DNA of 64,000 nt. It comes from Ruminococcus bicirculans (ex Wegman et al. 2014) (GTDB lineage Bacteria > Bacillota > Clostridia > Oscillospirales > Ruminococcaceae). The stretch lies in assembly GCF_000723465.1 (NCBI RefSeq), contig NZ_HF545617.1, positions 496,001-560,000 of the forward strand, written 5' to 3'. Each line of letters begins with the position of its first letter. Within the stretch, counting starts at the first letter, position 1. This document shows, one piece after another, positions 23,537-39,238 of this stretch. Made by a program: the position numbers and the translations under genes. The notes under the pieces were generated by a model. The model saw only the letters and a list, made by a program, of their open reading frames with translations, did no database searches and was not told the DNA's origin.

Positions 23537-24559
23537 ATGAGAAGATTTAATGGCTATATGCACGGCATCGATATCGGAGGCTGGCTGTCACAATGCGATT
23601 ACAGTAAGGAACATCTTGATAATTTTATTACAGAGGAGGACATCAAGCGTATAAAGGGCTGGGGCTGCGACCACGTTAGAGTGCCTGTGGATTATAATAT
23701 CTTTCAGGACGAAAACGGCTTTATAGAGAGCGGCTTCGACTATGTTCAGAAGTGTATCGATTGGTGCGGAAATAACGGTATCAATATGATACTTGACCTC
23801 CATAAGACAATGGGCTTTTTCTTTGACAAGGCTCAGGCTGAAAGCGGATTCTTTGATAACGCTGAGCTTCAGCAGAAATTCTATGACCTTTGGGAAGAGT
23901 TTGCAAAGCGTTTCAGCAAATATTCTGACAGAATTTCTTTTGAACTTCTCAATGAGGTAACTGATCCTAAGTTCAGCAAAAAGTGGAATGCTATCGTTGA
24001 AAATGCCATAAAGCTTATTAGAAGATATAGTGCTGATATAAATATTATTGTGGGCAGCTACTGGAACAACTCTATTGATTCAATGAAAGACCTTGATAAG
24101 CCTTATGACGAGCATATAGTTTATACTTTCCATTGCTATGACCCATTTCTTTTCACTCATCAGGCTGCCTATTGGGTAGATGAGATGCCGAGAGATTTCA
24201 GGATCGATTATCCGGGAAGCGTCCCAAAATACAGAAGTGAGGTAAAGCGTCTTGGTCTTGAATATATGCAGACATACGAGGAAGTCAAGACAGAGAAATT
24301 TACGCCTGATTATTTTATGGGAAGATTTGCTGAGGCTGTAAGGGTCGCAGAGGAAAGAAATGTTCCTATGTATTGTGGCGAATACGGTGTTATAAATCTT
24401 GCATCAGCTGAAAATACTCTTAACTGGTACAAGGATATAAGCAGTGCCTTTGAGAAATGTTCTATCGGAAGAGCGGCTTGGTCATATAAGGGTGTTGACT
24501 ATGGCTTTATTGACGGACATCTTGACAGCGTTCTTGATGAACTGGTAAAGTATCTTTAA
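23537..24559 (+). CDS. Glycoside hydrolase family 5 endoglucanase-like enzyme
   Basis: A 340-residue TIM-barrel protein with AAAGGACGG before the ATG. N-terminal GIDIGGWLSQCDYS and HVRVPVDYNIF fit GH5; the acid/base Glu is E140 in ELLNEV and the nucleophile is E282 in YCGEYGV. No signal peptide or binding module is present, so it should act inside the cell on imported beta-gluco-oligosaccharides. It lies upstream of a surface protein, a sugar-binding lipoprotein and a GH16, together suggesting beta-glucan use. A strong terminator follows, so it is its own transcript. Confidence 0.86.
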   Translation: MRRFNGYMHGIDIGGWLSQCDYSKEHLDNFITEEDIKRIKGWGCDHVRVPVDYNIFQDENGFIESGFDYVQKCIDWCGNNGINMILDLHKTMGFFFDKAQAESGFFDNAELQQKFYDLWEEFAKRFSKYSDRISFELLNEVTDPKFSKKWNAIVENAIKLIRRYSADINIIVGSYWNNSIDSMKDLDKPYDEHIVYTFHCYDPFLFTHQAAYWVDEMPRDFRIDYPGSVPKYRSEVKRLGLEYMQTYEEVKTEKFTPDYFMGRFAEAVRVAEERNVPMYCGEYGVINLASAENTLNWYKDISSAFEKCSIGRAAWSYKGVDYGFIDGHLDSVLDELVKYL

Positions 24560-24591
24560 TAGTTCATTTCTTAATATAACTCCATTTTTGG

Positions 24592-24627
24592 ACAAGCTCG
24601 GTCACGTTTGCCGAGCTTGTTTTTTTA
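24592..24627 (+). terminator. Terminator after the GH5 gene
   Basis: ACAAGCTCGG (24592-24601) and CCGAGCTTGT (24611-24620) with a T7 run. Confidence 0.85.
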
Positions 24628-24781
24628 TGCTTAGTTTCATAAATTGATGTTTGCTCATAAAATTCTATTTACGATAATTATTTGATGTAAATAATTGAAT
24701 ATTGATATAATAGTTTTAAAACAAAGCGTATAATATAAACATAATAATTCATAGTCACTTTCTTATAATAACTTCCGAATA

Positions 24782-24818
24782 AACAGACCTGCTTGAATAT
24801 CAAGTGGGTCTGTTTTCA
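24782..24818 (+). terminator. Second hairpin upstream of the surface-protein operon
   Basis: AACAGACC (24782-24789) and GGTCTGTT (24807-24814), with inner GCTTGA/CAAGT pairing and TTTT after it. Possibly an insulating terminator in the 421-nt gap before the next operon. Confidence 0.5.
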
Positions 24819-24888
24819 TATATTTATAATCTTTCATAAATTCGATATTAAACACTTTTATGATATTTATGTTACGTTTTTGATATAA

Positions 24889-24912
24889 ACAAAACGTTTA
24901 CATAGTTATAAT
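24889..24912 (+). promoter_or_regulatory. cre/LacI-type operator and -10 box of the 24.98-27.3 kb operon
   Basis: ACAAAACGTTTACA at 24889-24902 (complement TGTAAACGTTTTGT) resembles a catabolite-responsive or LacI-family site with the central CG. TATAAT follows at 24907-24912. Position at -10 to -30 would give repression. No good -35 is present at 17 nt. Confidence 0.45.
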
Positions 24913-24980
24913 ATATACAGAAACAACAAAATAAATTGCTTTTAGCAAAAAATTTTATTGAAAAATAGGAGGAAAAGGTT

Positions 24981-25838
24981 ATGAAGATCAAAAAATTTGT
25001 AGCAGGTCTTTCAGCAGCGGTTCTCGCAGCAACAATGATGTCAGTTTCTGTTTCGGCAGCAAAGCTTGGCGATGTTGTTCATCCGTCAGAGGAGGACTCA
25101 AAAATGAATGACTCATATTACTCTATCGGAGCAATGGGCTTTTATATGGGTCAGGACTGGACCTGGAATCAGGGCGATTGGGTAGGCATCGATGATTTTG
25201 GCAAGATAACTGTTGAATATAAGATAAGCAAAGTTGTCACCGACAAGACAATGTCAGGCAAGGGAACTCTTGGAGATATGGGCGTTATGGTGGCTAATCT
25301 TCCTGATGGTGTTTATCCTGTGGACGTTAAGATATCTGACGCAAAGTTCGTTGCCGAGGACGGCACAACAACGGTTTTTGATTCGCTTAATTCTATCACT
25401 TCATTGGACGAGGACCCAGAGGGTGGAATAAGAATACATATCAGACCAACTGACGAGGTCAATGATGAAACAGGCGAGGTAACAAAGAAGGCTTGTCCTG
25501 AGGTCGCAGGCTGGGAGAAGGAAGGCGCTTTCAACGGCGGCACACTTTCAATGACGCTTGATTTCGGTGTTGCATCTGCCGAGGGCGGAGAGTCAAAAAC
25601 AGATGCTTCAAAGGCAGATTCAAAGTCTGATGCTTCAAGCTCAAAGGCTGATACGTCAAAGAAAGACGTTTCTTCATCTAAGGCGGATGCAAACAAGACT
25701 TCTGCAGCAGCGGCTGCATCTTCAAAAGCATCTGACAATACATCTAAGGCAGCAGAAACAGGTGCGGCTGTTGGCGGAGCACTTGCTGTTATCGCTCTTG
25801 CCGGCACAGCAGTGATCGTTGCAAAGAGAAGAAAGTAA
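24981..25838 (+). CDS. Secreted surface protein with C-terminal membrane anchor, function unknown
   Basis: A 285-residue protein with AGGAGGAAAAGG upstream. A signal peptide ends near residue 26 (SVSVSAAKLG). A beta-rich domain of about 170 residues is Trp/Asp-rich (GQDWTWNQGDWVGIDDFG), as in carbohydrate-binding folds, though I do not recognise the family. A Ser/Lys/Asp/Ala linker (residues about 205-255) precedes ETGAAVGGALAVIALAGTA, a hydrophobic helix and AKRRK tail, a sortase-like or simple membrane anchor without a canonical LPxTG. It is followed 12-18 nt later by a sugar-binding lipoprotein, suggesting polysaccharide capture. Confidence 0.65.
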   Translation: MKIKKFVAGLSAAVLAATMMSVSVSAAKLGDVVHPSEEDSKMNDSYYSIGAMGFYMGQDWTWNQGDWVGIDDFGKITVEYKISKVVTDKTMSGKGTLGDMGVMVANLPDGVYPVDVKISDAKFVAEDGTTTVFDSLNSITSLDEDPEGGIRIHIRPTDEVNDETGEVTKKACPEVAGWEKEGAFNGGTLSMTLDFGVASAEGGESKTDASKADSKSDASSSKADTSKKDVSSSKADANKTSAAAAASSKASDNTSKAAETGAAVGGALAVIALAGTAVIVAKRRK

Positions 25839-25855
25839 TATTCGGAGGTATGGCT

Positions 25856-27280
25856 ATGAATAATGCAAAAAGAGTTTTAACATTTGCCCTTGCGGTTTGC
25901 TCGCTTTCAGCATTTGCTTCTTGCGGAAGTTCAAGTGATTCATCAAGCAAGGTAGTTGACAAAAAGCTTAAGGAAGATCAGCAGCAGATAGTTCAAAGAC
26001 TTGCTGATGATATGAAAGATGTGAGAGATCTCAAGAGCAACGAAATAAAGTGGTTTTCACATTGGGATATCAACCCTACTGAGGCAGAGGACAAGGAGAT
26101 AGGTGCTGACCTTGCTTTGTTCAAGACAAAGTATAATGGTAAGATAAACTGGGTGCAGACCACTTGGGAAACTAAGTTTGACGATCTTGCGGCACTTGTA
26201 ATGTCAAATGATTCACCTGATTTCATCGGTGCTGATGATATGGACGTTTTCCCTAAGGGTGCTATAAAGTCAATGATAGAGCCTATCGACGATTATATCG
26301 ATCTTTCAAAGCCTCTTTGGACAGACATAAAGGGTGCGACAGATCAGTTTATGCTTGGCGATAAGCATTATGTGAGCGTTATCAGAACAGACCCTGCATA
26401 TGTTTTTGTATACAACAAGCAGACAATGGAAGACAACGGCTATGACGATCCTGCTGAGCTTTTCAAAGAAGGAAAGTGGAACTGGGATACATTCACAGAA
26501 ATGTGTCTTGATTTTACTGACGCTGAAAGCGATAAATACGCTCTCGATGGCTGGTATTATGAAAAGGCTTTGCAGCAGTCTTCTGGTGTGCCGCTCATCG
26601 GTATCACAGACGGCAAGCTTGTAAATAATATTTCTGACCCTATGATAGCAAAGGCTCAGAATATGATGTATGAGCTGCAGAAGAACAATGTTGTTTATCC
26701 AAAGCACGAGAATAACTGGAAACTCAGAGGCGACGCAGAGGGCAGCGGAATGGCAACAGGTCTGACGCTTTTCTATCCTATCGGACTTTGGGCACTTGAG
26801 AATGCTCCGTCAACAACTGTAAACTATGGCGATGTATCAAAGGGAGAGGTAATGTTCGTTCCTGTTCCTTGCTCAGCTGATAGCGATAAACAGTATATCC
26901 CTTCCAGAGTACACGGCTTTAGCATTGTAAAGAACGCTCAAAATCCTGAGGGCGTGGCAGCTTTCCTTGAATGCTGCCGTTATGCAGAGCTTGACGAGGC
27001 TGCACATCAGATAACCCTCGATCAGTACAAGGACGATTACGGCTGGACAGATGAGATGCTTGAAATGAGAGAAACTATCTATGATCTGTCTGCACAGAAT
27101 CCTGTATTTGACTTTGAACAGGGCGTATCTGCCGACCTTAACTCTATCTGCGATACTGCCATAAGAGGAACAATGAATCCGCAGGAGTCAAAGAGCTGGT
27201 CACAGGTCGTTCAGGAAAATGAAAAGGCTATAGATTATCTCATCGACGAGGCTATGACTTCAATGAAAGAGGCTAAATAA
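25856..27280 (+). CDS. Family 1 extracellular solute-binding lipoprotein (sugar ABC type)
   Basis: The start is the ATG at 25856, seven bases after GGAGG; the ATG at 25850 is too close. The signal peptide ends in the lipobox AFASC. The mature 450 residues show the large two-lobe family-1 binding protein fold (INWVQTTWETKFDDLAALV, FIGADDMDVFP, EGVAAFLECCRYAEL). It likely binds beta-gluco-oligosaccharides. No permease or ATPase gene is adjacent, so it must use a transporter encoded elsewhere. Confidence 0.82.
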   Translation: MNNAKRVLTFALAVCSLSAFASCGSSSDSSSKVVDKKLKEDQQQIVQRLADDMKDVRDLKSNEIKWFSHWDINPTEAEDKEIGADLALFKTKYNGKINWVQTTWETKFDDLAALVMSNDSPDFIGADDMDVFPKGAIKSMIEPIDDYIDLSKPLWTDIKGATDQFMLGDKHYVSVIRTDPAYVFVYNKQTMEDNGYDDPAELFKEGKWNWDTFTEMCLDFTDAESDKYALDGWYYEKALQQSSGVPLIGITDGKLVNNISDPMIAKAQNMMYELQKNNVVYPKHENNWKLRGDAEGSGMATGLTLFYPIGLWALENAPSTTVNYGDVSKGEVMFVPVPCSADSDKQYIPSRVHGFSIVKNAQNPEGVAAFLECCRYAELDEAAHQITLDQYKDDYGWTDEMLEMRETIYDLSAQNPVFDFEQGVSADLNSICDTAIRGTMNPQESKSWSQVVQENEKAIDYLIDEAMTSMKEAK

Positions 27281-27300
27281 TATCTAATTATCAGAAAAAA

Positions 27301-27329
27301 GGGCGGCAGGGTGATTTGCCGTCCTTTTT
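27301..27329 (+). terminator. Terminator after the solute-binding protein gene
   Basis: GGGCGGCA and TGCCGTCC arms (27301-27308, 27317-27324) followed by T5. Confidence 0.7.
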
Positions 27330-27399
27330 CTATAAATATGAGGCTTTACTTGTGTCTGTAAATATGATATAATAAGCTAAAAAGCAGGGGGTGAAAGCT

Positions 27400-28161
27400 A
27401 TGGAAATAAACAGAGAATTGTCTAAGCGGCAGTTTATGCAAAAGGAAAATGACTATCATCATTCACCATATGAAACGGAACTGGAATTTTATTCTGCGGT
27501 GCGGGAGGGCGACCTTGAAACGGTCAAACGTTTGTATACGCCGCTGGATACAAACGGAAAGGGCAGACTCAGCAAAGACGAACTTAGAAACGTCAAGTAT
27601 CATCTTGTCATAACCATAGCTATGCTGTGCAGGTTTTGCATCGAGGGTGGACTTGACCCGGAAACTGCGTATACCATAAGCGATATATACATTAATAAAT
27701 GTGATGAGTGCCGCAATGAAGAAAGCGTTATGGCTGTACACAAAGAAGTCATCGTTTATTATACAAAGCAAATGAAAAAGGCTGCGTCACAGAACGTTTA
27801 CTCAAAGCATATTCTTATGTGCTTTGACTGTATTTTCGATAATATTTACAAGGGCGTGACCGTCAATCAGATAGCTGATGAACTGAACATAACGCCTCAG
27901 TATCTTTCAAAGCTTTTCAGAGAGGAAGTTGGCGTAAAGATCTCTGATTTCATTATGTCAAAAAGGATACAAGCGGCTGAAAATATGCTGAGATATTCTG
28001 AATATAGTCCGCTTGATATAGCCAATTATCTTGCTTTCAGCTCGCACAGCCATTTTATTGCCTGCTTTAAGAAACAGACAGGACTTACGCCGAAACAGTA
28101 TAGAGATCAGTTTTTCCGTGCAAACTGGAACAAGCATAGCACAAGCAGATCGAAAATATAA
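27400..28161 (+). CDS. AraC-family transcriptional regulator
   Basis: The ATG at 27400 is chosen because AGGGGGTG ends six bases upstream; a GTG at 27391 overlaps that site. The C-terminal 100 residues carry the paired AraC helix-turn-helices: VTVNQIADELNITPQYLSKL and SPLDIANYLAFSSHSHFIAC, with GLTPKQYRDQF at the end. The N-terminal 150 residues are helical and are not a cupin; they are typical of Clostridial AraC proteins that sense sugars through partner proteins. Position between the binding protein and GH16 suggests local control of beta-glucan genes. Confidence 0.85.
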   Translation: MEINRELSKRQFMQKENDYHHSPYETELEFYSAVREGDLETVKRLYTPLDTNGKGRLSKDELRNVKYHLVITIAMLCRFCIEGGLDPETAYTISDIYINKCDECRNEESVMAVHKEVIVYYTKQMKKAASQNVYSKHILMCFDCIFDNIYKGVTVNQIADELNITPQYLSKLFREEVGVKISDFIMSKRIQAAENMLRYSEYSPLDIANYLAFSSHSHFIACFKKQTGLTPKQYRDQFFRANWNKHSTSRSKI

Positions 28162-28275
28162 GTTGATGTTAATAATCTGATATTTGCATTACTTTTCTGA
28201 TATAAATATCACATTTGTTGATTTATAATACTTATAGAAGATAAAATTCTGATATTTATTCGGAGGTAATGAAAA

Positions 28276-29043
28276 ATGAAAAAAGTTTTGGCTATGTCGA
28301 TTCTCACAATGATAGTTATGTCTATGGGTGGCTGCGGTGCTTCATCTGACAGCAGTTCTTCGCAAGATGTCAGCAGCAAGGCGGAAACGGAAAGCAATTC
28401 TCCATACACGGTTGAGGCAGATTTCAGCAAGGGTGCGTCAAATGATTTTTCCATTTCAGCAGGCTGGTCAAATGGTGATCCGTTCAACTGTTCGTGGAGC
28501 GAAGATAATGTAACTTTCAATGACGGAAAAATGCAGCTTACCATTGACAGTATGGGCGATTCCGAAGCGTACAGAGGCGGCGAGTATCGTTCAAAGGAAA
28601 ACTATGGCTATGGACTTTATGAGGTATCGATGAAAGCCATAAAGAATGACGGCGTTGTATCATCGTTCTTTACATACACAGGCCCGTCGGAGGATAATCC
28701 TTGGGACGAAATAGATGTTGAAGTCCTTGGCAAGGATACAACAAAGGTGCAGTTCAATTACTACACCAATGGTGTTGGCAAGCACGAATATATGTATGAT
28801 CTTGGATTTGACGCTTCTGAGGATTTTCACACTTACGCATTTGAGTGGAAAGAGGACAGCATAACTTGGTATGTTGACGGAAAGGAAGCATACAAGGCTA
28901 CTGAAAATCTGCCTGTTACGCCTGGTAAAATAATGATGAATGCGTGGAACGGCATTGGCGTTGACAGCTGGCTGAAAGCCTTTGACGGCACAGTTCCGCT
29001 TACAGCGGAATATGAGTGGGCAAGGTTTACGGCAGAAAAGTAA
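28276..29043 (+). CDS. GH16 beta-1,3-1,4-glucanase (lichenase-like), lipid-anchored
   Basis: A 255-residue protein with GGAGG upstream. Signal peptide with lipobox MSMGGC. The GH16 catalytic signature DEIDVEVLG is complete: nucleophile E145, D147 and acid/base E149. [20 protein letters not shown] fits lichenases. It should degrade mixed-linkage beta-glucans at the cell surface, feeding the adjacent binding protein and the cytoplasmic GH5. A 19-bp-stem terminator follows. Confidence 0.88.
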
Positions 29044-29108
29044 AGTGATCCGCATATTATGCTTGCGTTTATGTCTTGATTTTTTTTAGTTAATGATATT
29101 GATATTTG

Positions 29109-29160
29109 AACCGACCCCATTCGCTAGGTCAAAAAGTCTAGCGAATGGGGTCGGTTTATT
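29109..29160 (+). terminator. Strong 19-bp terminator hairpin after GH16
   Basis: AACCGACCCCATTCGCTAG (29109-29127) pairs perfectly with 29138-29156; a 10-nt loop contains A5 and a T-rich tail follows. Confidence 0.85.
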
Positions 29161-29271
29161 TTACAAAGATAAACTCCATATATTAACTTTTCTCATGAGC
29201 CTGACTATTTATGATATCATGAGTATATTTCTGTATAGGGGCGTTTTTTGCTATAATTTTCATTTATATTC

Positions 29272-30450
29272 TCACATCTCAACTTCTCGGTTATACGCCT
29301 CAGCCCCCTCGACATACAGTGTTCTCATTTCTTCAAACGAGTCGCTTGGGGATAGGATAACGCCGTCTTTGCCGAACTTATTGAAATAGTATTTGACTTG
29401 GATAGGCGGGGAGATGAACTCGTTGACAGCGTTGGGCTTGGGCTTTTCATTGCCTTTTAGTATGGGGCGCTGATAGAGTATTTTGCCGAACATTTCAACG
29501 CCTTTTTCGGTGAGGTACACTTTGGAGATATCGCTCTCATCACTGCCAAAACGTGGGTCGCTGAGTAGGTGCTTCACGGACTTGACGTGACCCTCTTTCA
29601 GCCGTTCGTATTCGGTGACGGAGGAGTATTCCTTTTGGCTGAGCTTTTCTGCGATGCTTAGTCCGCTCAATCTGCTTATGCGATAGCTGTCGGCTTTGAA
29701 CTCTTTGCCTGCGCTTTTTTCGTCGGACAGGCAGACAAGATAATTATACATCTTATATTCGTCGCTGACGATACGGTAGGGGATAAGCCTTATGCGGCGC
29801 TTTTCACGGCTGTACATATTAGAATATGCGTAAATGAAGCTGTAATATCTGCTGCCGTTTTGTTTGATGACTTCATTTATTTTTATGATATTGTCGGCGA
29901 AAATGAGCCTTTCACGTTCGCAATCTGACAGCAGGGCATAGTCCTCATACACGGCTTTCAGAAATCTTCTTAGGGTCGAGCTGTACACTTTGTTTTCATA
30001 ATAAAGGTCATCACTGCTCAGTGTATCGTAAAGGTCACGGCATATGCTGAGCCTTACTCGCACTGCATTTTCGGTCTTGGTCTTTTCGTATTTTGCAGAG
30101 AGCTTTGAGATAAGATAGCTTTTTATTATCTCCTTGCTTTTATCATCAAGGCTGTCATCGATCTCCTCGATCTGCCATTTTACGAATGCGTTCAGAAGTG
30201 GGATACCAATATATTTATAGTTATCGTCACTTTTGTATTTTAATGATGCGATATATGCTGAATCAAATATACTTGTGAGAAATGAGGACATTGATACGCT
30301 GCCGTTAGGGGAAAGGCTTGTTTCAAATATGGACTTGTCCTTGATAATGACGGAATATGCAGAGGGTGAGAGGGGTATGGATTGCACCTCTGCGATATAT
30401 GGTACGCCGTCCTCACGCTTGGGCAGAAATGTGCTTGGGGTCATGCTCAT
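29272..30450 (-). CDS. WYL-domain accessory protein of the type VI-D locus (WYL1-like)
   Basis: A 392-residue protein. The ATG at 30450 is selected because AGAGGTGAT lies four bases upstream. The N-terminus (MTPSTFLPKREDGVPYIA) fits the ribbon-helix-helix-like segment of WYL1 proteins; the central part holds the WYL-type beta strands (RIRLIPYRIVSDEYKMYNYL, residues about 215-235), and a C-terminal helical extension follows. It is divergent from the array and cas13d. Related WYL1 proteins associated with Cas13d have been reported to bind RNA and enhance Cas13d activity. Here it has its own near-consensus promoter and no shared operon with cas13d. Confidence 0.82.
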   Translation of the reverse strand: MSMTPSTFLPKREDGVPYIAEVQSIPLSPSAYSVIIKDKSIFETSLSPNGSVSMSSFLTSIFDSAYIASLKYKSDDNYKYIGIPLLNAFVKWQIEEIDDSLDDKSKEIIKSYLISKLSAKYEKTKTENAVRVRLSICRDLYDTLSSDDLYYENKVYSSTLRRFLKAVYEDYALLSDCERERLIFADNIIKINEVIKQNGSRYYSFIYAYSNMYSREKRRIRLIPYRIVSDEYKMYNYLVCLSDEKSAGKEFKADSYRISRLSGLSIAEKLSQKEYSSVTEYERLKEGHVKSVKHLLSDPRFGSDESDISKVYLTEKGVEMFGKILYQRPILKGNEKPKPNAVNEFISPPIQVKYYFNKFGKDGVILSPSDSFEEMRTLYVEGAEAYNREVEM

Positions 30451-30470
30451 TTTTATCACCTCTTGTATCC

Positions 30471-30498
30471 ATTATATCACAAATGTACTTTTTGTCAA
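30471..30498 (-). promoter_or_regulatory. Promoter of the WYL1-like gene
   Basis: Minus strand TTGACA (complement of 30493-30498), 16 nt, TATAAT (complement of 30471-30476). The transcript would start about 15 nt before the ATG. Confidence 0.75.
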
Positions 30499-30614
30499 TA
30501 TCATAGAAAATTATTTTGTTGAAATTGTGATATAAATGCCGTAAAAACGTGATAAATGTGCAAAAACATAGACAAAAAAGTTTTTGAAAATTACACTTTT
30601 GTTGACGATGATAA

Positions 30615-30630
30615 GGTGGTATAATGTATA
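30615..30630 (+). promoter_or_regulatory. Extended -10 promoter for the mini-ORF leader
   Basis: TGGTATAAT with TATAAT at 30620-30625 and the TG extension at 30617-30618. The upstream -35 is poor (TTGACG at 30602 is only 12 nt away). Confidence 0.5.
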
Positions 30631-30657
30631 CAGAACAAAGGACAGGAGGTGATAAAA

Positions 30658-30738
30658 ATGGGAAAGACGATCCTTACGACTATCCTTATAGCCGTACTTG
30701 ACTGCGCTATCGCAGCTGTCAAGGAGCTTGGGGACTGA
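30658..30738 (+). CDS. 26-residue hydrophobic peptide in the Cas13d locus leader
   Basis: The ATG is preceded by ACAGGAGGTGATAAAA, one of the best ribosome sites in the window. The product MGKTILTTILIAVLDCAIAA then VKELGD is a short hydrophobic helix with a charged end, like small membrane peptides or type I toxins. It is separated by one base from the next ORF start. Not a known cas gene; it could also be a leader peptide. Confidence 0.45.
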   Translation: MGKTILTTILIAVLDCAIAAVKELGD

Positions 30739-30739
30739 G

Positions 30740-30802
30740 ATGAATTTACAACAGACAGGAGGTGATGAAAATGCTTTATGTAAAACAGCCACTTTCTATT
30801 GA
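30740..30802 (+). CDS. 20-residue ORF, possibly coupled to the upstream peptide
   Basis: Starts one base after the previous stop and encodes MNLQQTGGDENALCKTATFY. Inside it a second perfect AGGAGGTGAT (30757-30766) precedes an alternative ATG at 30771 encoding MLYVKQPLSIDICV. The two ribosome sites at 30645 and 30757 look duplicated. Which frame is used is unclear; it overlaps the array promoter. Confidence 0.3.
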   Translation: MNLQQTGGDENALCKTATFY

Positions 30803-30827
30803 CATTTGTGTCTGAAAATGGTATAAT
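30799..30827 (+). promoter_or_regulatory. Consensus promoter of the CRISPR array
   Basis: TTGACA (30799-30804), exactly 17 nt, TATAAT (30822-30827), a perfect sigma-A-type match. Expected start near 30834, about 70 nt before the partial repeat and 108 nt before the first complete repeat. The array is oriented for transcription to the right (repeats end in AAAAC before spacers). Confidence 0.8.
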
Positions 30828-30903
30828 ATATACATTAAAGCGTCGATAAAATAAGTTTGGTGTTTTATTACAGAATATCATTGATTATTTTGTCAACTTT
30901 GAC

Positions 30904-30920
30904 CTACTACACTAGTGCAA
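30904..30920 (+). repeat. Truncated leading direct repeat
   Basis: CTACTACACTAGTGC followed by AA equals the first 15-17 nt of the 36-nt repeat. It begins 38 nt before the first full repeat instead of 66, as if 28 bp spanning the repeat 3' half and part of a spacer were deleted. Confidence 0.65.
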
Positions 30921-30941
30921 TAGCTTCTCTGTTAGCTCTAG

Positions 30942-31175
30942 CTACTATACTGGTGCGAATTTGCACTAGTCTAAAATGCTATCTGTGTTACTTTCATAAA
31001 TTTTTCCCTACTACACTGGTGCGAATTTGCACTAGTCTAAAACTCATTAATAGATTTAGTTTTATCAAGACTGCTACTACACTAGTGCGAATTTGCACTA
31101 GTCTAAAACGAAACACCTGTGTTAGGCGTGTCAGGAACTCTACTACATTGGTGCGAATTTGCACCAACTGGCAAA
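30942..31175 (+). CRISPR. Type VI-D CRISPR array: 4 repeats of 36 nt, 3 spacers of 30 nt
   Basis: Repeats at 30942-30977, 31008-31043, 31074-31109 and a degenerate one at 31140-31175. The repeat starts CTACTACACTGGTGCGAAT and ends GCACTAGTCTAAAAC; GTGC...GCAC pair as the Cas13d crRNA stem, and the 3' AAAAC precedes the spacer. The first repeat ends in T instead of C. The last keeps about 25 nt and then diverges, marking the trailer end. Spacers are 30978-31007, 31044-31073 and 31110-31139, all exactly 30 nt. No spacer target was searched. Confidence 0.96.
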
Positions 31176-31203
31176 GTCTAACATCAAAAATAACAAATAA
31201 AAA

Positions 31204-31232
31204 ATCCCTTAACGCTCAATGCGCTAAGGGAT
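31204..31232 (-). terminator. Hairpin between array and cas13d, terminator in minus orientation
   Basis: ATCCCTTA (31204-31211) and TAAGGGAT (31225-31232) with an inner CGC/GCG pairing. The T-run is only on the minus strand (A-rich 31197-31204), so it would stop antisense transcription coming from cas13d, not the array transcript. Confidence 0.5.
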
Positions 31233-31255
31233 AACTAATATAAGGAGTGATATTT

Positions 31256-34012
31256 ATGGCAAAAAAGAATAAAATGAAGCCTAGAGAGCTGCGTGAGGCT
31301 CAGAAAAAAGCCAGACAGCTCAAAGCGGCTGAGATAAATAATAACGCTGTTCCTGCAATCGCTGCCATGCCTGCTGCAGAGGCTGCTGCACCTGCGGCAG
31401 AGAAGAAAAAATCCTCCGTAAAGGCGGCAGGAATGAAGTCTATTCTTGTCAGTGAAAATAAAATGTACATAACCTCTTTCGGCAAGGGCAATTCTGCGGT
31501 GCTTGAATATGAGGTGGATAATAATGACTACAACAAAACTCAGCTTTCCTCAAAGGACAACAGTAATATCGAGCTCTGTGATGTAGGCAAAGTAAACATC
31601 ACTTTTTCGAGCAGACGTGGCTTTGAGAGCGGTGTGGAGATAAACACTTCAAACCCTACTCACAGAAGCGGTGAAAGCTCGTCTGTAAGAGGGGATATGC
31701 TGGGGCTTAAATCGGAGCTTGAAAAGCGCTTTTTCGGCAAGAATTTTGATGATAATATACATATCCAGCTTATTTACAACATTCTGGATATCGAAAAGAT
31801 ACTTGCAGTGTATGTGACGAATATCGTTTATGCACTGAACAATATGCTTGGGGAAGGCGATGAGAGCAATTACGATTTCATGGGGTATCTTTCCACATTT
31901 AACACTTATAAAGTTTTTACTAATCCTAATGGCAGCACTTTATCCGACGATAAGAAAGAGAATATCAGAAAAAGTCTTAGCAAATTCAATGCCCTGCTGA
32001 AAACTAAGCGTCTTGGCTATTTCGGCCTTGAAGAGCCAAAGACAAAGGATACAAGAGCTTCGGAAGCATACAAAAAGCGTGTTTATCATATGCTTGCAAT
32101 TGTGGGGCAGATAAGACAGTGTGTTTTTCATGATAAATCGGGTGCAAAAAGATTTGACCTTTACAGTTTTATTAACAATATTGATCCCGAATACAGAGAA
32201 ACCCTTGACTATCTTGTAGATGAGAGATTTGATTCTATAAATAAGGGCTTTATCCAGGGCAACAAGGTCAATATCAGCTTGCTTATTGATATGATGAAAG
32301 GCTATGAGGCTGATGATATCATACGCCTTTATTACGATTTCATTGTGCTTAAATCTCAGAAAAATCTCGGTTTTTCTATCAAAAAGCTTCGTGAGAAAAT
32401 GCTGGACGAATACGGCTTCAGATTTAAGGACAAGCAATATGACTCTGTGCGCTCAAAGATGTACAAGCTTATGGATTTTCTGCTTTTCTGCAACTACTAC
32501 AGAAATGACATTGCCGCAGGCGAATCTCTTGTGCGCAAACTGCGTTTTTCAATGACCGATGATGAAAAAGAGGGGATATATGCTGATGAAGCGGCAAAGC
32601 TTTGGGGCAAATTCAGGAATGATTTTGAAAATATCGCCGACCACATGAACGGTGACGTTATCAAGGAGCTTGGCAAGGCTGACATGGATTTTGATGAGAA
32701 AATTCTTGACAGCGAAAAGAAGAATGCGTCTGACCTTTTGTATTTCTCCAAAATGATATATATGCTCACATATTTTCTTGACGGCAAGGAGATAAACGAC
32801 CTTCTTACAACGCTTATCAGCAAGTTTGATAACATCAAGGAGTTTTTGAAGATAATGAAAAGCTCTGCTGTTGATGTTGAGTGTGAACTTACGGCGGGCT
32901 ACAAGCTGTTCAATGACAGCCAGAGGATAACCAACGAGCTTTTTATCGTAAAGAACATTGCTTCCATGAGAAAGCCTGCGGCTTCGGCGAAGCTTACGAT
33001 GTTCCGTGACGCACTGACTATACTCGGTATAGACGACAAGATCACGGACGATAGGATAAGCGAGATTCTAAAACTTAAAGAAAAAGGCAAGGGCATACAT
33101 GGCCTGAGAAATTTCATAACAAACAATGTTATCGAGTCCTCTCGGTTTGTATACCTTATCAAGTATGCGAACGCTCAGAAGATAAGAGAAGTGGCTAAGA
33201 ATGAGAAAGTTGTCATGTTTGTTCTTGGGGGTATCCCTGACACGCAGATAGAGCGTTATTACAAGAGTTGTGTGGAATTTCCTGACATGAACAGTTCTTT
33301 GGGAGTAAAGCGCAGTGAGCTTGCGAGAATGATAAAGAACATCAGCTTTGATGATTTCAAAAATGTGAAACAGCAGGCAAAGGGCAGAGAAAACGTGGCT
33401 AAGGAGAGGGCAAAGGCTGTTATCGGGCTTTATCTTACGGTCATGTATCTGCTGGTGAAAAATCTTGTGAATGTCAATGCAAGGTATGTTATTGCGATAC
33501 ACTGCCTTGAACGTGATTTTGGGCTGTATAAGGAGATAATTCCTGAGTTGGCTTCAAAGAACTTGAAAAATGACTACAGGATACTTTCACAGACGCTTTG
33601 TGAACTTTGTGATAAGTCGCCGAATTTGTTCTTGAAAAAGAACGAGCGGCTGCGCAAGTGCGTTGAAGTTGATATCAATAATGCAGACAGCAGCATGACA
33701 AGAAAATACCGCAACTGTATTGCTCATCTTACTGTAGTTCGTGAACTGAAAGAATACATAGGAGATATTTGTACAGTGGATTCTTACTTCTCCATTTATC
33801 ATTATGTTATGCAGCGCTGTATCACGAAAAGGGAAAATGACACAAAGCAAGAAGAGAAAATAAAGTATGAGGACGATCTTTTAAAAAATCACGGCTATAC
33901 GAAAGACTTTGTAAAGGCTCTCAACTCGCCGTTTGGATACAACATTCCGAGGTTTAAAAATCTTTCAATTGAGCAGTTGTTTGACAGAAATGAATATCTT
34001 ACTGAAAAGTAG
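31256..34012 (+). CDS. cas13d: Cas13d RNA-guided RNase (type VI-D effector)
   Basis: A 918-residue protein; the ATG at 31256 follows AAGGAGTGATATTT. Both HEPN catalytic motifs are present: R287-QCVF-H292 and R819-NCIA-H824 (R-x4-H). Conserved family segments include DMLGLKSELEKRFFG, NILDIEKILAVYVTNIVYA, FLDGKEINDLLTTLISKFDN and the C-terminal PFGYNIPRFKNLSIEQLFDR. The N-terminal 50 residues are a Lys/Ala-rich extension (AAMPAAEAAAPAAEKKK) that is longer than in several homologues. It processes pre-crRNA and cleaves target RNA with collateral activity. It is 80 nt downstream of the array; no cas1/cas2 nearby. Confidence 0.96.
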   Translation: MAKKNKMKPRELREAQKKARQLKAAEINNNAVPAIAAMPAAEAAAPAAEKKKSSVKAAGMKSILVSENKMYITSFGKGNSAVLEYEVDNNDYNKTQLSSKDNSNIELCDVGKVNITFSSRRGFESGVEINTSNPTHRSGESSSVRGDMLGLKSELEKRFFGKNFDDNIHIQLIYNILDIEKILAVYVTNIVYALNNMLGEGDESNYDFMGYLSTFNTYKVFTNPNGSTLSDDKKENIRKSLSKFNALLKTKRLGYFGLEEPKTKDTRASEAYKKRVYHMLAIVGQIRQCVFHDKSGAKRFDLYSFINNIDPEYRETLDYLVDERFDSINKGFIQGNKVNISLLIDMMKGYEADDIIRLYYDFIVLKSQKNLGFSIKKLREKMLDEYGFRFKDKQYDSVRSKMYKLMDFLLFCNYYRNDIAAGESLVRKLRFSMTDDEKEGIYADEAAKLWGKFRNDFENIADHMNGDVIKELGKADMDFDEKILDSEKKNASDLLYFSKMIYMLTYFLDGKEINDLLTTLISKFDNIKEFLKIMKSSAVDVECELTAGYKLFNDSQRITNELFIVKNIASMRKPAASAKLTMFRDALTILGIDDKITDDRISEILKLKEKGKGIHGLRNFITNNVIESSRFVYLIKYANAQKIREVAKNEKVVMFVLGGIPDTQIERYYKSCVEFPDMNSSLGVKRSELARMIKNISFDDFKNVKQQAKGRENVAKERAKAVIGLYLTVMYLLVKNLVNVNARYVIAIHCLERDFGLYKEIIPELASKNLKNDYRILSQTLCELCDKSPNLFLKKNERLRKCVEVDINNADSSMTRKYRNCIAHLTVVRELKEYIGDICTVDSYFSIYHYVMQRCITKRENDTKQEEKIKYEDDLLKNHGYTKDFVKALNSPFGYNIPRFKNLSIEQLFDRNEYLTEK

Positions 34013-34056: not shown

Positions 34057-34125
34057 GTGATATTCATTCTTGTAAAAGACGTGGTGGATATTCTGTTTGA
34101 TTTGTTTTTTGGAAAGAAGAAGTAG
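34057..34125 (+). CDS. 22-residue amphipathic peptide after cas13d
   Basis: GACAGGAGGTGGCG precedes a GTG start; product MIFILVKDVVDILFDLFFGK and KK. The alternation of hydrophobic and acidic residues with a Lys tail resembles membrane-active small peptides. It is 44 nt after cas13d. Conservation would have to be shown; a chance ORF with a good ribosome site is possible. Confidence 0.35.
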   Translation: MIFILVKDVVDILFDLFFGKKK

Positions 34126-34411
34126 GACAAGTGAAAATCAGAGCGCTGTATGCAATGTGATGCGGATATCTACAAACGCTTAGCAGCATAAAGCTGATGA
34201 AGCTCCTTAAAAAGCTGAATATTTTTCGATTTTCTACCTCACCAGCGTCATTAGGGGAATAGTCCCAATCGTCTGTAGAAGCGATAACAACAGTATCGTT
34301 CTTAAAGTCAACTATAGCGCCAACACCATATGTAGTGATAAGCTGAGTTTTTCTTATATCTCCAACGGAGATCTTTTTGTTTGAATATGTTGATATGCCA
34401 TTCTTCTGCAT
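34064..34411 (-). pseudogene. N-terminal remnant of a DUF1998/DrmB-like defence protein
   Basis: Residues 15-50 (VGDIRKTQLITTYGVGAIVD, then NDTVVIASTDDWDYS) match the start of DUF1998 proteins such as DrmB of DISARM (R-x2-Q, T-[FY]-G-x-G-A-[IL]-[VI]-D). Homology ends about residue 70 and the rest of the frame looks random, so more than 500 residues are missing. In a second frame just upstream (complement of about 34390-34490, LERVESIEPRIRDYAEEW) may be the tail of the preceding gene of the same operon. It is a deletion scar of a second defence locus beside Cas13d. Confidence 0.55.
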
Positions 34412-35239: not shown

Positions 35240-35290
35240 ATATATAAAGGTGTTCTCGTTTAAAAGTTTTTGTATGAGGTGATGAAATTG

Positions 35291-38200
35291 ATGAATATGA
35301 AGAAAAGAATGTTGAGCATTGTCCTGTCTGGCGCAATGGCTGTTTCTACTGCTGTGTCTGCTGGATCGTTCAGTGCCTTTGCCGTGGCGCAATGTGTTGC
35401 GTATTCAGGCTCTAATGTGAATGATCAGGACTATGTGCAATGGTCTGACACAGTGAAATCTTACCTGACAGTGTGCGACAACGGCAATTATATGCGTGTC
35501 CAGTCAGGCGCTATCGAGGGCAAACTCCTTGTGGAATATTACAGCTCTGATTTTGAACCGCTCAGCACTAAGCTTATCGACAATGAACTGCCGATCTTTG
35601 GTGCTTTCTATGACTCCGGCAATAATTATTATGTACTTAGCGGTCAGGAAAATCCGAAACAAAACGACTCCCTCGAGGTTTTCCGTATAACGAAGTATGA
35701 TAAGAATTGGAACAAAATAAAGTCCTGCGGTCTGTATGGAGCTAACACTACAGTTCCATTCGATGCAGGCTCGGCAAGAATGACCCATAGCGGTGACCAC
35801 CTGCTTGTGAGAACCTGCCACGAAATGTATAAATCAAGCGACGGCAATAATCATCAGTCTAATGTTACCATTGAAGTGGATATGCCTTCAATGACTATCA
35901 CTGATTCGTATACCGGCATCATGAACGTTGATTATGGCTATGTGAGCCACTCCTTCAATCAGTTTATAAAAACCGACGGCAACCATATAGTCGCCCTCGA
36001 CCATGGTGACGCTCATCCACGTTCTGCCGTTCTGGTGAAGTATAATTCTGATTTTACTACAGGCAAATTTTTCCCAAGTTATTTTGAACAGGTCAGCAAT
36101 ATCGACGTTGTAACATACCCTGAATATACCGCCGGTCACTATAACTATACAGGTGCGGCTATAGGCGGCTTTGATGTGTCATCATCAAGCTATATCGTGG
36201 CACAGAGTACAGTTGACCTTGATTATATCAATACGTCAGAAACACGAAACGTCTACGTTTCCGCTGTTTCAAAGGACCTTTCCACAAACAAGCTCAATAA
36301 GATAACTTCTTATGCAGAGGGTACAGACTCAGCTTCTGCTCCACAGCTTGTGAAGATAAATAATAACAGCTTTTTGCTATTGTGGAGCAGAGATACAAAG
36401 GTAAGCTGTGTGAAGCTAAACGCTGACGGCACAGTAAACGGCAGTATACACACCTTTGAGGGAAGCCTTTCAGATTGCCAGCCTGTTATCAAAAACGGCA
36501 GAGCAGTTTGGTATGTTTACGATAAAAATAACGTTACCTTCAACTCCCTGAACCTTTCAAATCTTGACGATATAAAGACGGTTGACGTCAAAACAGGTCA
36601 TGACTACGAAACAAAGTACGCATCAAAAACTGACGGCACTGTAACACAGACCTGCAAGTCTTGCGGTTATGTGAATAAGTTCACAGTTCCGACCTCTACC
36701 ACTGTTTATTGGCGCACAGACCTTTCGAATACGTCCTTTTCAAGCGTATTGAGCAAAACTCAGTTCAGTGTGGGCGACAGCATTGATTTCTGGCTTTATG
36801 ACGATACAGACTACACAGTTGAATTTTCTGATCGCAGTATGGTAAGTGTAAATAAGCTTGAAAACTATGCTAATGATATCAGACGTATCACATTCAAAAA
36901 CGGCGGTTCACTCACTGTAAAAATTTATCCTACATACAATCCGTCTGTAGCAAAGACATACAAATTCACCTGCGGATGCACGAGCCACACATATGGCAAT
37001 GCTGTTATTACAAAACAGCCGACCTGCACATCAGAGGGTACAAAAACAAAGACTTGCACAAAGTGCAATGCGACAGTTACAGAAACTATACCAAAGACTT
37101 CACACAAATATGCTAACACAGTTGTTGCACCTACTTGCACTACTGACGGCTACACTCTCCACAAGTGTTCAGCTTGCGGTACTTCATACAAGGACAACAC
37201 AACAAAAGCAACAGGTCACAGCTACGGAAATTCTGTTGTAACAAAACAACCGACCTGCACATCAGAGGGTACTGCTATAAAGACTTGCACAAAGTGCAAT
37301 GCGACAGTTACAGAAACTATACCAAAGACTTCACACAAATATGCTGACACAGTTGTTGCACCTACTTGCACTACTGACGGCTACACTCTCCACAAGTGTT
37401 CTGTTTGCGGTACTTCATACAAGGATAGCACAACAAATGCAACAGGTCACAGCTACGGAAATTCTGTTGTAACAAAACAGCCGACCTGCACATCAGAGGG
37501 TACTGCTATAAAGACTTGCACAAAGTGCAATGCGACAGTTACAGAAACTATACCAAAGGCTTCACACAAATATGCTGACACAGTTGTTGCACCTACTTGC
37601 ACTACTAACGGCTATACACTCCACAAGTGTTCAGTTTGCGGTACTTCATACAAGGACAGCACAACTAATGCAACAGGTCACAGCTACGGAAATTCTGTTG
37701 TAACAAAACAACCGACCTGCACATCAGAGGGTACTGCTATAAAGACTTGCACAAAGTGCAATGCGACAGTTACAGAAACTATACCAAAGACTTCACACAA
37801 ATATGCTGACACAGTTGTTGCACCTACTTGCACTACTGACGGCTACACTCTCCACAAGTGTTCTGTTTGCGGTACTTCATACAAGGATAGCACAACAAAT
37901 GCAACAGGTCACAGCTACGGAAATTCTGTTGTAACAAAACAGCCGACCTGCACATCAGAGGGTACTGCTATAAAGACTTGCACAAAGTGCAATGCGACAG
38001 TTACAGAAACTATACCAAAGGCTTCACACAAATATGCTGACACAGTTGTTGCACCTACTTGCACTACTAACGGCTATACACTCCACAAGTGTTCAGTTTG
38101 CGGTACTTCATACAAGGACAGCACAACTAATGCAACAGGTCACAGCTACGGAAATTCTGTTGTAACAAAACAGCCGACCTGCACATCAGAGGGTACAAAA

Positions 38201-39238
38201 ATAAAGACTTGCACAAAGTGCAATGTGACAGTTACAGAAAAGCTTCCTGCAAAGGGTCACACTGCAGTTACCGACAAGGGCTACCCTGCTACTTGCACCA
38301 CCGCAGGCAAAACAGACGGCTCACATTGCTCAGTTTGCAATACTGTTATCAAGGTTCAGACAGTGATATATGCCACAGGTCACAAGTCAAGCGGTTGGAT
38401 AGTTGACAAGGCGGCTTCTATCGGAGTTAAAGGCTCAAAACACAAGGAATGTACAGTCTGCAAGAAAGTTCTTGAAACGGCTGAGATCCCTGCACTTTCA
38501 AGAATTAGCATTTCAAAGGCAAGCGTGACACTTTCCACTTCGACCTACGCATATGACGGCAAGGCAAAGAAGCCTGGTGTAACGGTCAAGCTAAACGGAA
38601 AAACTTTGAAGAATGGTACAGATTACACAGTTTCCTATTCAAACAACACCAAGGTCGGAACAGCTACTGTAAAAATCACAGGCAAGGGCAATTACACAGG
38701 CTCAGTTTCTAAGACCTACAATATCAAAAATAACTTCAAGAAAGCCACCATTTCAGGCATTTCAAACAAGTCATATACGGGCAAGAATATCACTCAGAGC
38801 TTTACTGTTAAATACAATGGCAAAACGCTGAAAAAAGGCACTGACTACACAGTTTCCTACTTAAGCAACAAGAATATAGGTACTGCCACTGTAAAAGTCA
38901 CAGGAAAAGGCTCTTACGCAGGCACTATCACAAAGACGTTCAAGATAAATCCTGCCAAGCAGGAGATACAGAAGCTCACTGCTAAGAGCAAGGCATTCTT
39001 TGTGGATTGGGCGCAGAAAGGTTCGGCTACCGGATACGAGATACAGTACGCTACCAACTCAAAGTTCACAAGTGCAAAGAAAGTTACCATAACAAACAAC
39101 AAGACCGACAAGACCACTATTTCAAAGCTTTCAGGCAAAAAGAAATATTACGTTCGTGTTCGTTCGTATACAACTGTAAAGGGTACTAAGTATTATGGCG
39201 CTTGGTCGGCTTCAAAGAGTGTGACTACTAAGAAGTAA
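35291..39238 (+). CDS. Large secreted surface protein with Cys-rich tandem repeats, Ig-like and Fn3-like domains
   Basis: About 1315 residues; GAGGTGAT lies seven bases before the ATG at 35291 (earlier in-frame ATGs overlap it). Signal peptide ends near SAGSFSAFA. Order: N-terminal beta-propeller-like domain (about 35-440), a domain with HDYETKYASK and CKSCG pairs, then five 77-residue repeats with two C-x2-C pairs each (TCTKCNATV, HKCSVCGTS), a sixth partial one, two Ig-like modules (NGTDYTVSYSNNTKVGTATV; KGTDYTVSYLSNKNIGTATV) and a C-terminal Fn3 domain. No LPxTG or membrane tail, so it is released or bound non-covalently. Likely adhesion or polymer binding. Confidence 0.85.
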   Translation: MNMKKRMLSIVLSGAMAVSTAVSAGSFSAFAVAQCVAYSGSNVNDQDYVQWSDTVKSYLTVCDNGNYMRVQSGAIEGKLLVEYYSSDFEPLSTKLIDNELPIFGAFYDSGNNYYVLSGQENPKQNDSLEVFRITKYDKNWNKIKSCGLYGANTTVPFDAGSARMTHSGDHLLVRTCHEMYKSSDGNNHQSNVTIEVDMPSMTITDSYTGIMNVDYGYVSHSFNQFIKTDGNHIVALDHGDAHPRSAVLVKYNSDFTTGKFFPSYFEQVSNIDVVTYPEYTAGHYNYTGAAIGGFDVSSSSYIVAQSTVDLDYINTSETRNVYVSAVSKDLSTNKLNKITSYAEGTDSASAPQLVKINNNSFLLLWSRDTKVSCVKLNADGTVNGSIHTFEGSLSDCQPVIKNGRAVWYVYDKNNVTFNSLNLSNLDDIKTVDVKTGHDYETKYASKTDGTVTQTCKSCGYVNKFTVPTSTTVYWRTDLSNTSFSSVLSKTQFSVGDSIDFWLYDDTDYTVEFSDRSMVSVNKLENYANDIRRITFKNGGSLTVKIYPTYNPSVAKTYKFTCGCTSHTYGNAVITKQPTCTSEGTKTKTCTKCNATVTETIPKTSHKYANTVVAPTCTTDGYTLHKCSACGTSYKDNTTKATGHSYGNSVVTKQPTCTSEGTAIKTCTKCNATVTETIPKTSHKYADTVVAPTCTTDGYTLHKCSVCGTSYKDSTTNATGHSYGNSVVTKQPTCTSEGTAIKTCTKCNATVTETIPKASHKYADTVVAPTCTTNGYTLHKCSVCGTSYKDSTTNATGHSYGNSVVTKQPTCTSEGTAIKTCTKCNATVTETIPKTSHKYADTVVAPTCTTDGYTLHKCSVCGTSYKDSTTNATGHSYGNSVVTKQPTCTSEGTAIKTCTKCNATVTETIPKASHKYADTVVAPTCTTNGYTLHKCSVCGTSYKDSTTNATGHSYGNSVVTKQPTCTSEGTKIKTCTKCNVTVTEKLPAKGHTAVTDKGYPATCTTAGKTDGSHCSVCNTVIKVQTVIYATGHKSSGWIVDKAASIGVKGSKHKECTVCKKVLETAEIPALSRISISKASVTLSTSTYAYDGKAKKPGVTVKLNGKTLKNGTDYTVSYSNNTKVGTATVKITGKGNYTGSVSKTYNIKNNFKKATISGISNKSYTGKNITQSFTVKYNGKTLKKGTDYTVSYLSNKNIGTATVKVTGKGSYAGTITKTFKINPAKQEIQKLTAKSKAFFVDWAQKGSATGYEIQYATNSKFTSAKKVTITNNKTDKTTISKLSGKKKYYVRVRSYTTVKGTKYYGAWSASKSVTTKK
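36980..38250 (+). repeat. 231-bp tandem repeats inside the surface protein gene
   Basis: Unit starts at 36980, 37211, 37442, 37673, 37904 and 38135 (last one partial). Units 2-3 and 4-5 alternate the same KTSHKY...TDGYT and KASHKY...TNGYT variants and are almost identical as a 462-bp pair, pointing to recent duplication of a dimer. Confidence 0.92.

Follow-up and report, generated by a model that had tools for sequence, protein, structure and literature searches.

A repeat length of 36 nt is a defining trait of CRISPR-Cas subtype VI-D. According to those sections of PMC9008242 that deal with the subtype, a WYL accessory gene is present in most type VI-D loci, and cas1 and cas2 do not lie next to cas13d. 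Two proteins of such systems that have been solved are the effector UrCas13d (PDB 6iv8/6iv9; PMC6559982) and the accessory protein RspWYL1 (PDB 6oaw; PMC6547453); part of the latter paper describes WYL1 as having a ribbon-helix-helix fold and an affinity for ssRNA that is much higher than its affinity for dsDNA. A further point of comparison is provided by EsCas13d (PDB 6e9e), whose locus we take to be L022 among the loci compared below (its first residues match those of 6e9e).

Here we study a stretch of 64,000 nt, called the window, which spans positions 496001-560000 of contig C2 (0.73 Mb) in a genome of two contigs and 2,968,500 bases in total. A type VI-D CRISPR-Cas locus is found at 29272-34012 of this window. 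An earlier sequence-only reading had assigned the locus to type VI-D on account of its Cas13d and WYL1, and this assignment is confirmed by the near-identity of the two proteins to UrCas13d and RspWYL1, as well as by Cas13d family models. To judge from its sequence, the locus is a typical type VI-D interference locus, known already in kind and nearly in sequence, and it is probably functional. With considerable confidence, we regard it as an intact interference module that is most likely no longer gaining spacers.

The cas13d gene occupies the open reading frame 31247/31256-34012 (+) and encodes 918 aa from the ATG at 31256. Counted from a full-length alignment (E 0), 869 of these 918 residues are identical in UrCas13d (6iv8), and the two proteins differ by substitutions and by two short gaps of 1 and 3 residues. 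A search against Cas13d families, as had been proposed, agrees with this match: NCBIfam NF038189 scores the protein at 1101.5 bits, compared with a cut-off of 150, and the PADLOC Cas13d models recognise it as well, while Pfam names neither the cas13d product nor the wyl1 product. The protein has no RxxxxH motifs other than R287-x4-H292 and R819-x4-H824, which lie exactly where the HEPN motifs had been placed, and the R-to-A sites of the crystallised UrCas13d mutant align with R287 and R819. The long Ala/Lys-rich N-terminus had been singled out as a point of interest, but it is not distinctive, since UrCas13d has nearly the same one (4 differences in 60 residues). Our comparison with UrCas13d, which has the same HEPN residues, covers the proteins. 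By analogy with this ortholog, as characterised in the relevant parts of PMC6559982, Cas13d would be expected to cleave RNA under the guidance of a crRNA.

The accessory gene wyl1 lies at 29272-30459 (-) and encodes 395 aa from a GTG at 30459, or 392 aa from an ATG at 30450. As had been claimed, it is oriented divergently from the array and cas13d. Its product is identical to RspWYL1 at 380 of 391 aligned residues (E 9e-247), with 6 of the 11 differences falling in the first 15 aligned residues. It is this match that identifies the WYL accessory gene of a type VI-D locus; NCBIfam, PADLOC and Pfam all leave the product unnamed at E 0.01.

The locus of EsCas13d resembles the present one in its effector family, in possessing an array, and in that its nearest cas1 lies about 122 kb away. 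It differs in several respects, however. Its effector is only 39-42% identical to the Cas13d studied here, its array is longer and lies downstream of cas13d, and a tblastn search of the 19 kb read (E 1e-3) finds no WYL1 homolog.

The CRISPR array extends over 30942-31175 (+) and contains four 25-nt repeat cores at a spacing of exactly 66 nt. That is, a 36-nt repeat alternates with a 30-nt spacer, as the sequence-only reading had stated. The repeats start at 30942, 31008, 31074 and 31140, and spacers 1, 2 and 3, each of 30 nt, occupy 30978-31007, 31044-31073 and 31110-31139 (+). The stem-loop of the repeat is placed 5' of the spacer, as in type VI-D arrays; repeats 1-3 form the same 9-pair stem-loop, and a similar stem is kept in the last repeat despite the decay of its 3' end. 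Repeats 2 and 3 end in TCTAAAAC, which is the U(-8)-C(-1) stretch that, in the experiments described in part of PMC6559982, was indispensable for target cleavage by UrCas13d. Repeat 1, ahead of spacer 1, ends in TCTAAAAT, with a final T instead of C. At up to 3 mismatches, the array holds the sole copies of the VI-D repeat in the genome.

Upstream of repeat 1 there is a truncated leader-proximal repeat, R0, at 30904-30918 (+), whose 15 nt are the same as the first 15 of repeat 3. It is separated from repeat 1 by a residual sequence of 23 nt (30919-30941), and the distance from R0 to repeat 1 is 38 nt, not 66. An array had been correctly reported in this region, but its extent, given as 30834-31180, must be corrected to 30904-31175, with three spacers, the truncated first repeat having been overlooked. 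The leader end, at 30874-30903 (+), resembles the leaders of other VI-D arrays. The sequence directly 5' of R0 agrees with three VI-D leaders from two other genomes at 14, 14 and 15 of 20 positions, compared with 5, 5 and 4 of 20 for the sequence directly 5' of repeat 1; these three are drawn from six other leaders, the leaders of L022, L020 and the upstream L023 array being left out of the scoring. The score of 15 is obtained against one L023 leader, and in the window 5 of 63980 20-mers, the leader end itself included, score at least 15 against it. We note that the loci L021 and L023 have arrays on both sides of cas13d, and that the leaders of L021 look similar to each other and to the downstream leader of L023.

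R0 would then be the true leader-end repeat, its unit having been shortened by about 28 bases. Since the leader-proximal repeat is incomplete, the array of three spacers is probably frozen, in the sense of being closed to new spacers. A broken first repeat is no proof that acquisition is impossible, and the other repeats could in principle be used.

A Pfam search of the whole genome finds a single cas1 (C2:252264-253127, E 5.0e-94) and a single cas2 (C2:253277-253510, E 1.1e-24), about 242 kb from the left end of the window and about 272 kb from wyl1. The claim that cas1 and cas2 are missing from the 64-kb window therefore holds, and the locus has no adjacent cas1 and cas2 of its own, such as would mark an autonomous adaptive locus. 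The surrounding genes are named by NCBIfam as cas3, cas5c, cas8c, cas7, cas4, cas1c and cas2, a set that identifies the system as type I-C; the search elsewhere in the genome has thus located one gene of each kind, both in this system. Its array follows the cas set (L002:13728-20000), and the 20 kb read include at least 95 of its repeats. Two of its spacers are present more than once.

Given a complete I-C adaptation set and so large an I-C array, the VI-D array might still be receiving spacers in trans, from the type I-C Cas1-Cas2 or from the machinery of another strain. Because cas1 and cas2 do exist in the genome, albeit in a system with an unrelated repeat, their absence from the locus is no argument against such a supply. 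However, the I-C repeat (32 nt, GTCACGCTCC...) is unlike the VI-D repeat, no VI-D spacer agrees with any of the 94 I-C spacers read at more than 17 positions, and the leader-end repeat of the VI-D array is truncated. We therefore consider supply in trans to be very unlikely. The sequence-only reading had held that spacers must come from elsewhere or not at all; the genome indeed has its cas1 and cas2 elsewhere, in the I-C system, but the fragmentary leader-end repeat makes current acquisition unlikely. With no adaptation genes of its own, an unrelated I-C repeat and this fragmentary repeat, the array is most likely no longer gaining spacers.

The absence of adjoining adaptation genes is by no means peculiar to this locus. 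A Cas13d match occurs in 5 of the 295 genomes searched, our own included, and the four other Cas13d-bearing relatives examined likewise have no cas1 or cas2 adjoining cas13d. Some cas1 is present in four of these five genomes and none in the fifth; in two of the four it lies on a different contig from cas13d, and in the others the distance is about 122 kb and 274 kb. These separations make the lack of adjoining adaptation genes the rule in the five genomes. These features that had been flagged as of interest are thus ordinary: the N-terminus is nearly that of UrCas13d, and the missing adaptation genes are in print for the subtype.

In the 5.8 kb scanned, two sigma-70-like sites match the consensus at 12 of 12 positions, one directed into wyl1 (30464-30498, -; TTGACA-16-TATAAT) and one into the array (30799-30834, +; TTGACA-17-TATAAT). 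Promoter-like sites of all scores number 20, as against 15.1 expected from shuffles, and so the weaker sites mean little. These two complete sites bear upon the possibility that the locus as a whole is dead, a relic no longer capable of interference. Such a relic could account for the shortness of the array, for its degenerate first and last repeats, and for the gene remnant just downstream of cas13d, which is the N-terminus of a DrmB-family (DISARM-related) protein (34193-34366, -; model positions 2-59 of 604 only). Yet cas13d and wyl1 are both full length, the catalytic motifs of Cas13d are intact, the promoter consensus is matched fully at two sites, and repeats 2 and 3 retain the TCTAAAAC end. 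We find it highly improbable that the locus is dead, and we retain the reading of an intact interference module with a frozen array.

The promoter-like sites have a further property. The wyl1 site carries the box GATATAATGGATACA at 30464-30478 and the array site the box GGTATAATATATACA at 30820-30834; a third box, the -10-like GGTATAATGTATACA at 30618-30632 (+), precedes an ORF of 26 aa, and the consensus scan finds no consensus -35 at the usual spacing for it. The sequence GRTATAATNNATACA is common to all three sites of the gap between wyl1 and the array. Of its 7 copies in the genome, 3 fall within these 371 bases, but because it overlaps the -10 element, the sharing is partly a matter of promoter consensus. 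A further copy of the shorter TATAATNNATACA lies outside the locus, at position 24907 of the window, and in four distant Cas13d loci there is just one, 53 bases before the cas13d ORF of L022. That WYL1 reads the shared box is a guess.

Three possible small ORFs flank the array and cas13d, with similar strong ribosome sites (ACAGGAGGTG): one of 26 aa (30658-30738, +), its strong ribosome site being similar to the wyl1 one; one of 14 aa (30771-30815, +), with a ribosome-site region that copies the first one at 88%; and one of 22 aa (34057-34125), again with a strong ribosome site. The first and third appear hydrophobic by eye, and neither has a family match. In the four distant Cas13d loci, a loose search for the ribosome site gives a single match; it lies in L020, 2 kb ahead of cas13d, and not at a similar small ORF. 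Self-regulation of the kind called CreTA, with a crRNA directed against the small ORFs or against cas13d or wyl1 mRNA, is unsupported (lowest P 0.032 in 16 shuffle comparisons). One might also imagine a circuit proper to this locus, in which GRTATAATNNATACA would tie together wyl1, the gene for the 26-aa peptide and the array, possibly via the ribbon-helix-helix of WYL1, such that guides, helper and peptide would rise together on infection and a frozen memory would be deployed against the mRNA of an ssDNA microvirus. We hold this circuit to be unlikely.

Searches of the spacers against phages and plasmids, which had also been proposed, yield one suggestive match. Spacer 2 matches the gokushovirus KT264824 over 22 contiguous nt (positions 3-24; E 4e-3, with 20 of 145 records listed) and at 24 of 30 positions in all, and it matches two homologs of KT264824 at 21 of the 22 nt and at 22 of 30 positions overall; the three are not independent matches. 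In all three phages, 39 bases separate the end of the match from the VP4 start (in the third record, which is unverified, from that of a VP4-like feature), and the crRNA is antisense to the phage genes. The site lies inside a reading frame of 38 aa that ends in PMRGGIRL, a conserved small gokushovirus gene with relatives in 356 phage records at E 0.01. As reported in part of PMC6559982, UrCas13d no longer cleaved its target when two-base mismatches were placed at positions 5-8 and 13-22. KT264824 pairs with spacer 2 at all of these positions, and each homolog has one mismatch there, at position 6 or 16. A scan of viral_contigs with the back-translated pattern finds 12 stretches, none with a gokushovirus reading frame around the site, and one of them, from an unrelated phage, equals the 24 of 30 (in a set pre-selected by the pattern). 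The reversed sequences of spacers 2 and 1, used as controls, give nothing better than E 0.6 in the 5 matches listed of 225 and 174 records, respectively. At E 4e-3, with three spacers tested, the match is suggestive and not proof; a gokushovirus-like phage may possibly have been one past target. Our literature search found nothing that joins Cas13d and gokushoviruses.

For spacer 1, the phage matches listed (20 of 72 records) have E 0.2 or weaker. It agrees with one other microvirus at 22 of 30 positions and with an unclassified gut phage at 23, but these are discounted, since the best of 20 shuffled spacers already reaches 21. For spacer 3, none of the 5 records (all listed) is stronger than E 2. 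Exact 21-22-nt spacer cores have no match in viral_contigs, whole spacers at up to 3 mismatches match only their own array in 396 family genomes each, the stretch 30978-31139 has no match in plasmids at E 1, and a full-length protospacer is found for none of the three spacers. Nor does any spacer match elsewhere in its own genome at up to 3 mismatches, which indicates that there is no self-targeting. None of the 94 I-C spacers read matches any of 8 microvirus loci at better than 70% without gaps.

The surroundings of the locus hint at a spot of defence-gene turnover. A genome of the same genus, with 93% identity to the window over 24404-29044, lacks a Cas13d match and carries a hydrolase-like gene (by eye) after the glucanase gene; in the 19 kb read, its homology to this part of the window resumes only at 29040-29168, which contains a terminator-like hairpin, and its two other short matches correspond to distant parts of the window. 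Besides the DrmB remnant, a tRNA-Pro lies downstream of cas13d. Farther along, 35270-39238 encodes a protein of 1322 aa that by eye looks secreted; it has several near-identical repeats rich in cysteine, and its C-terminus matches fibronectin type III weakly, below the Pfam cut-off. A mobile vehicle for the locus is unsupported: viral_contigs contains no Cas13d relative, in a search reaching close relatives only, and phages show no DNA match at E 1e-5.

If the locus operates as its relatives do, the array would be transcribed into pre-crRNA, which Cas13d would cut into crRNAs with a 30-nt handle. Cas13d loaded with a crRNA would bind the complementary mRNA of a phage and cut it, cleaving RNA collaterally as well, and WYL1, expressed from the divergent promoter, would stimulate Cas13d. 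We infer the processing, cleavage and WYL1 steps from proteins of 95-97% identity tested by others, and the frozen state of the array from its sequence.

The main value of these results is one of correction, as both proteins are near-copies of solved ones and the absence of nearby cas1 and cas2 has already been described for the subtype. The small new points are modest leads: a VI-D array, probably frozen, whose genome also has a large type I-C array; gokushoviruses as a possible natural target of a system that acts on RNA; and a promoter box common to three sites, through which regulation by WYL1 can be tested.
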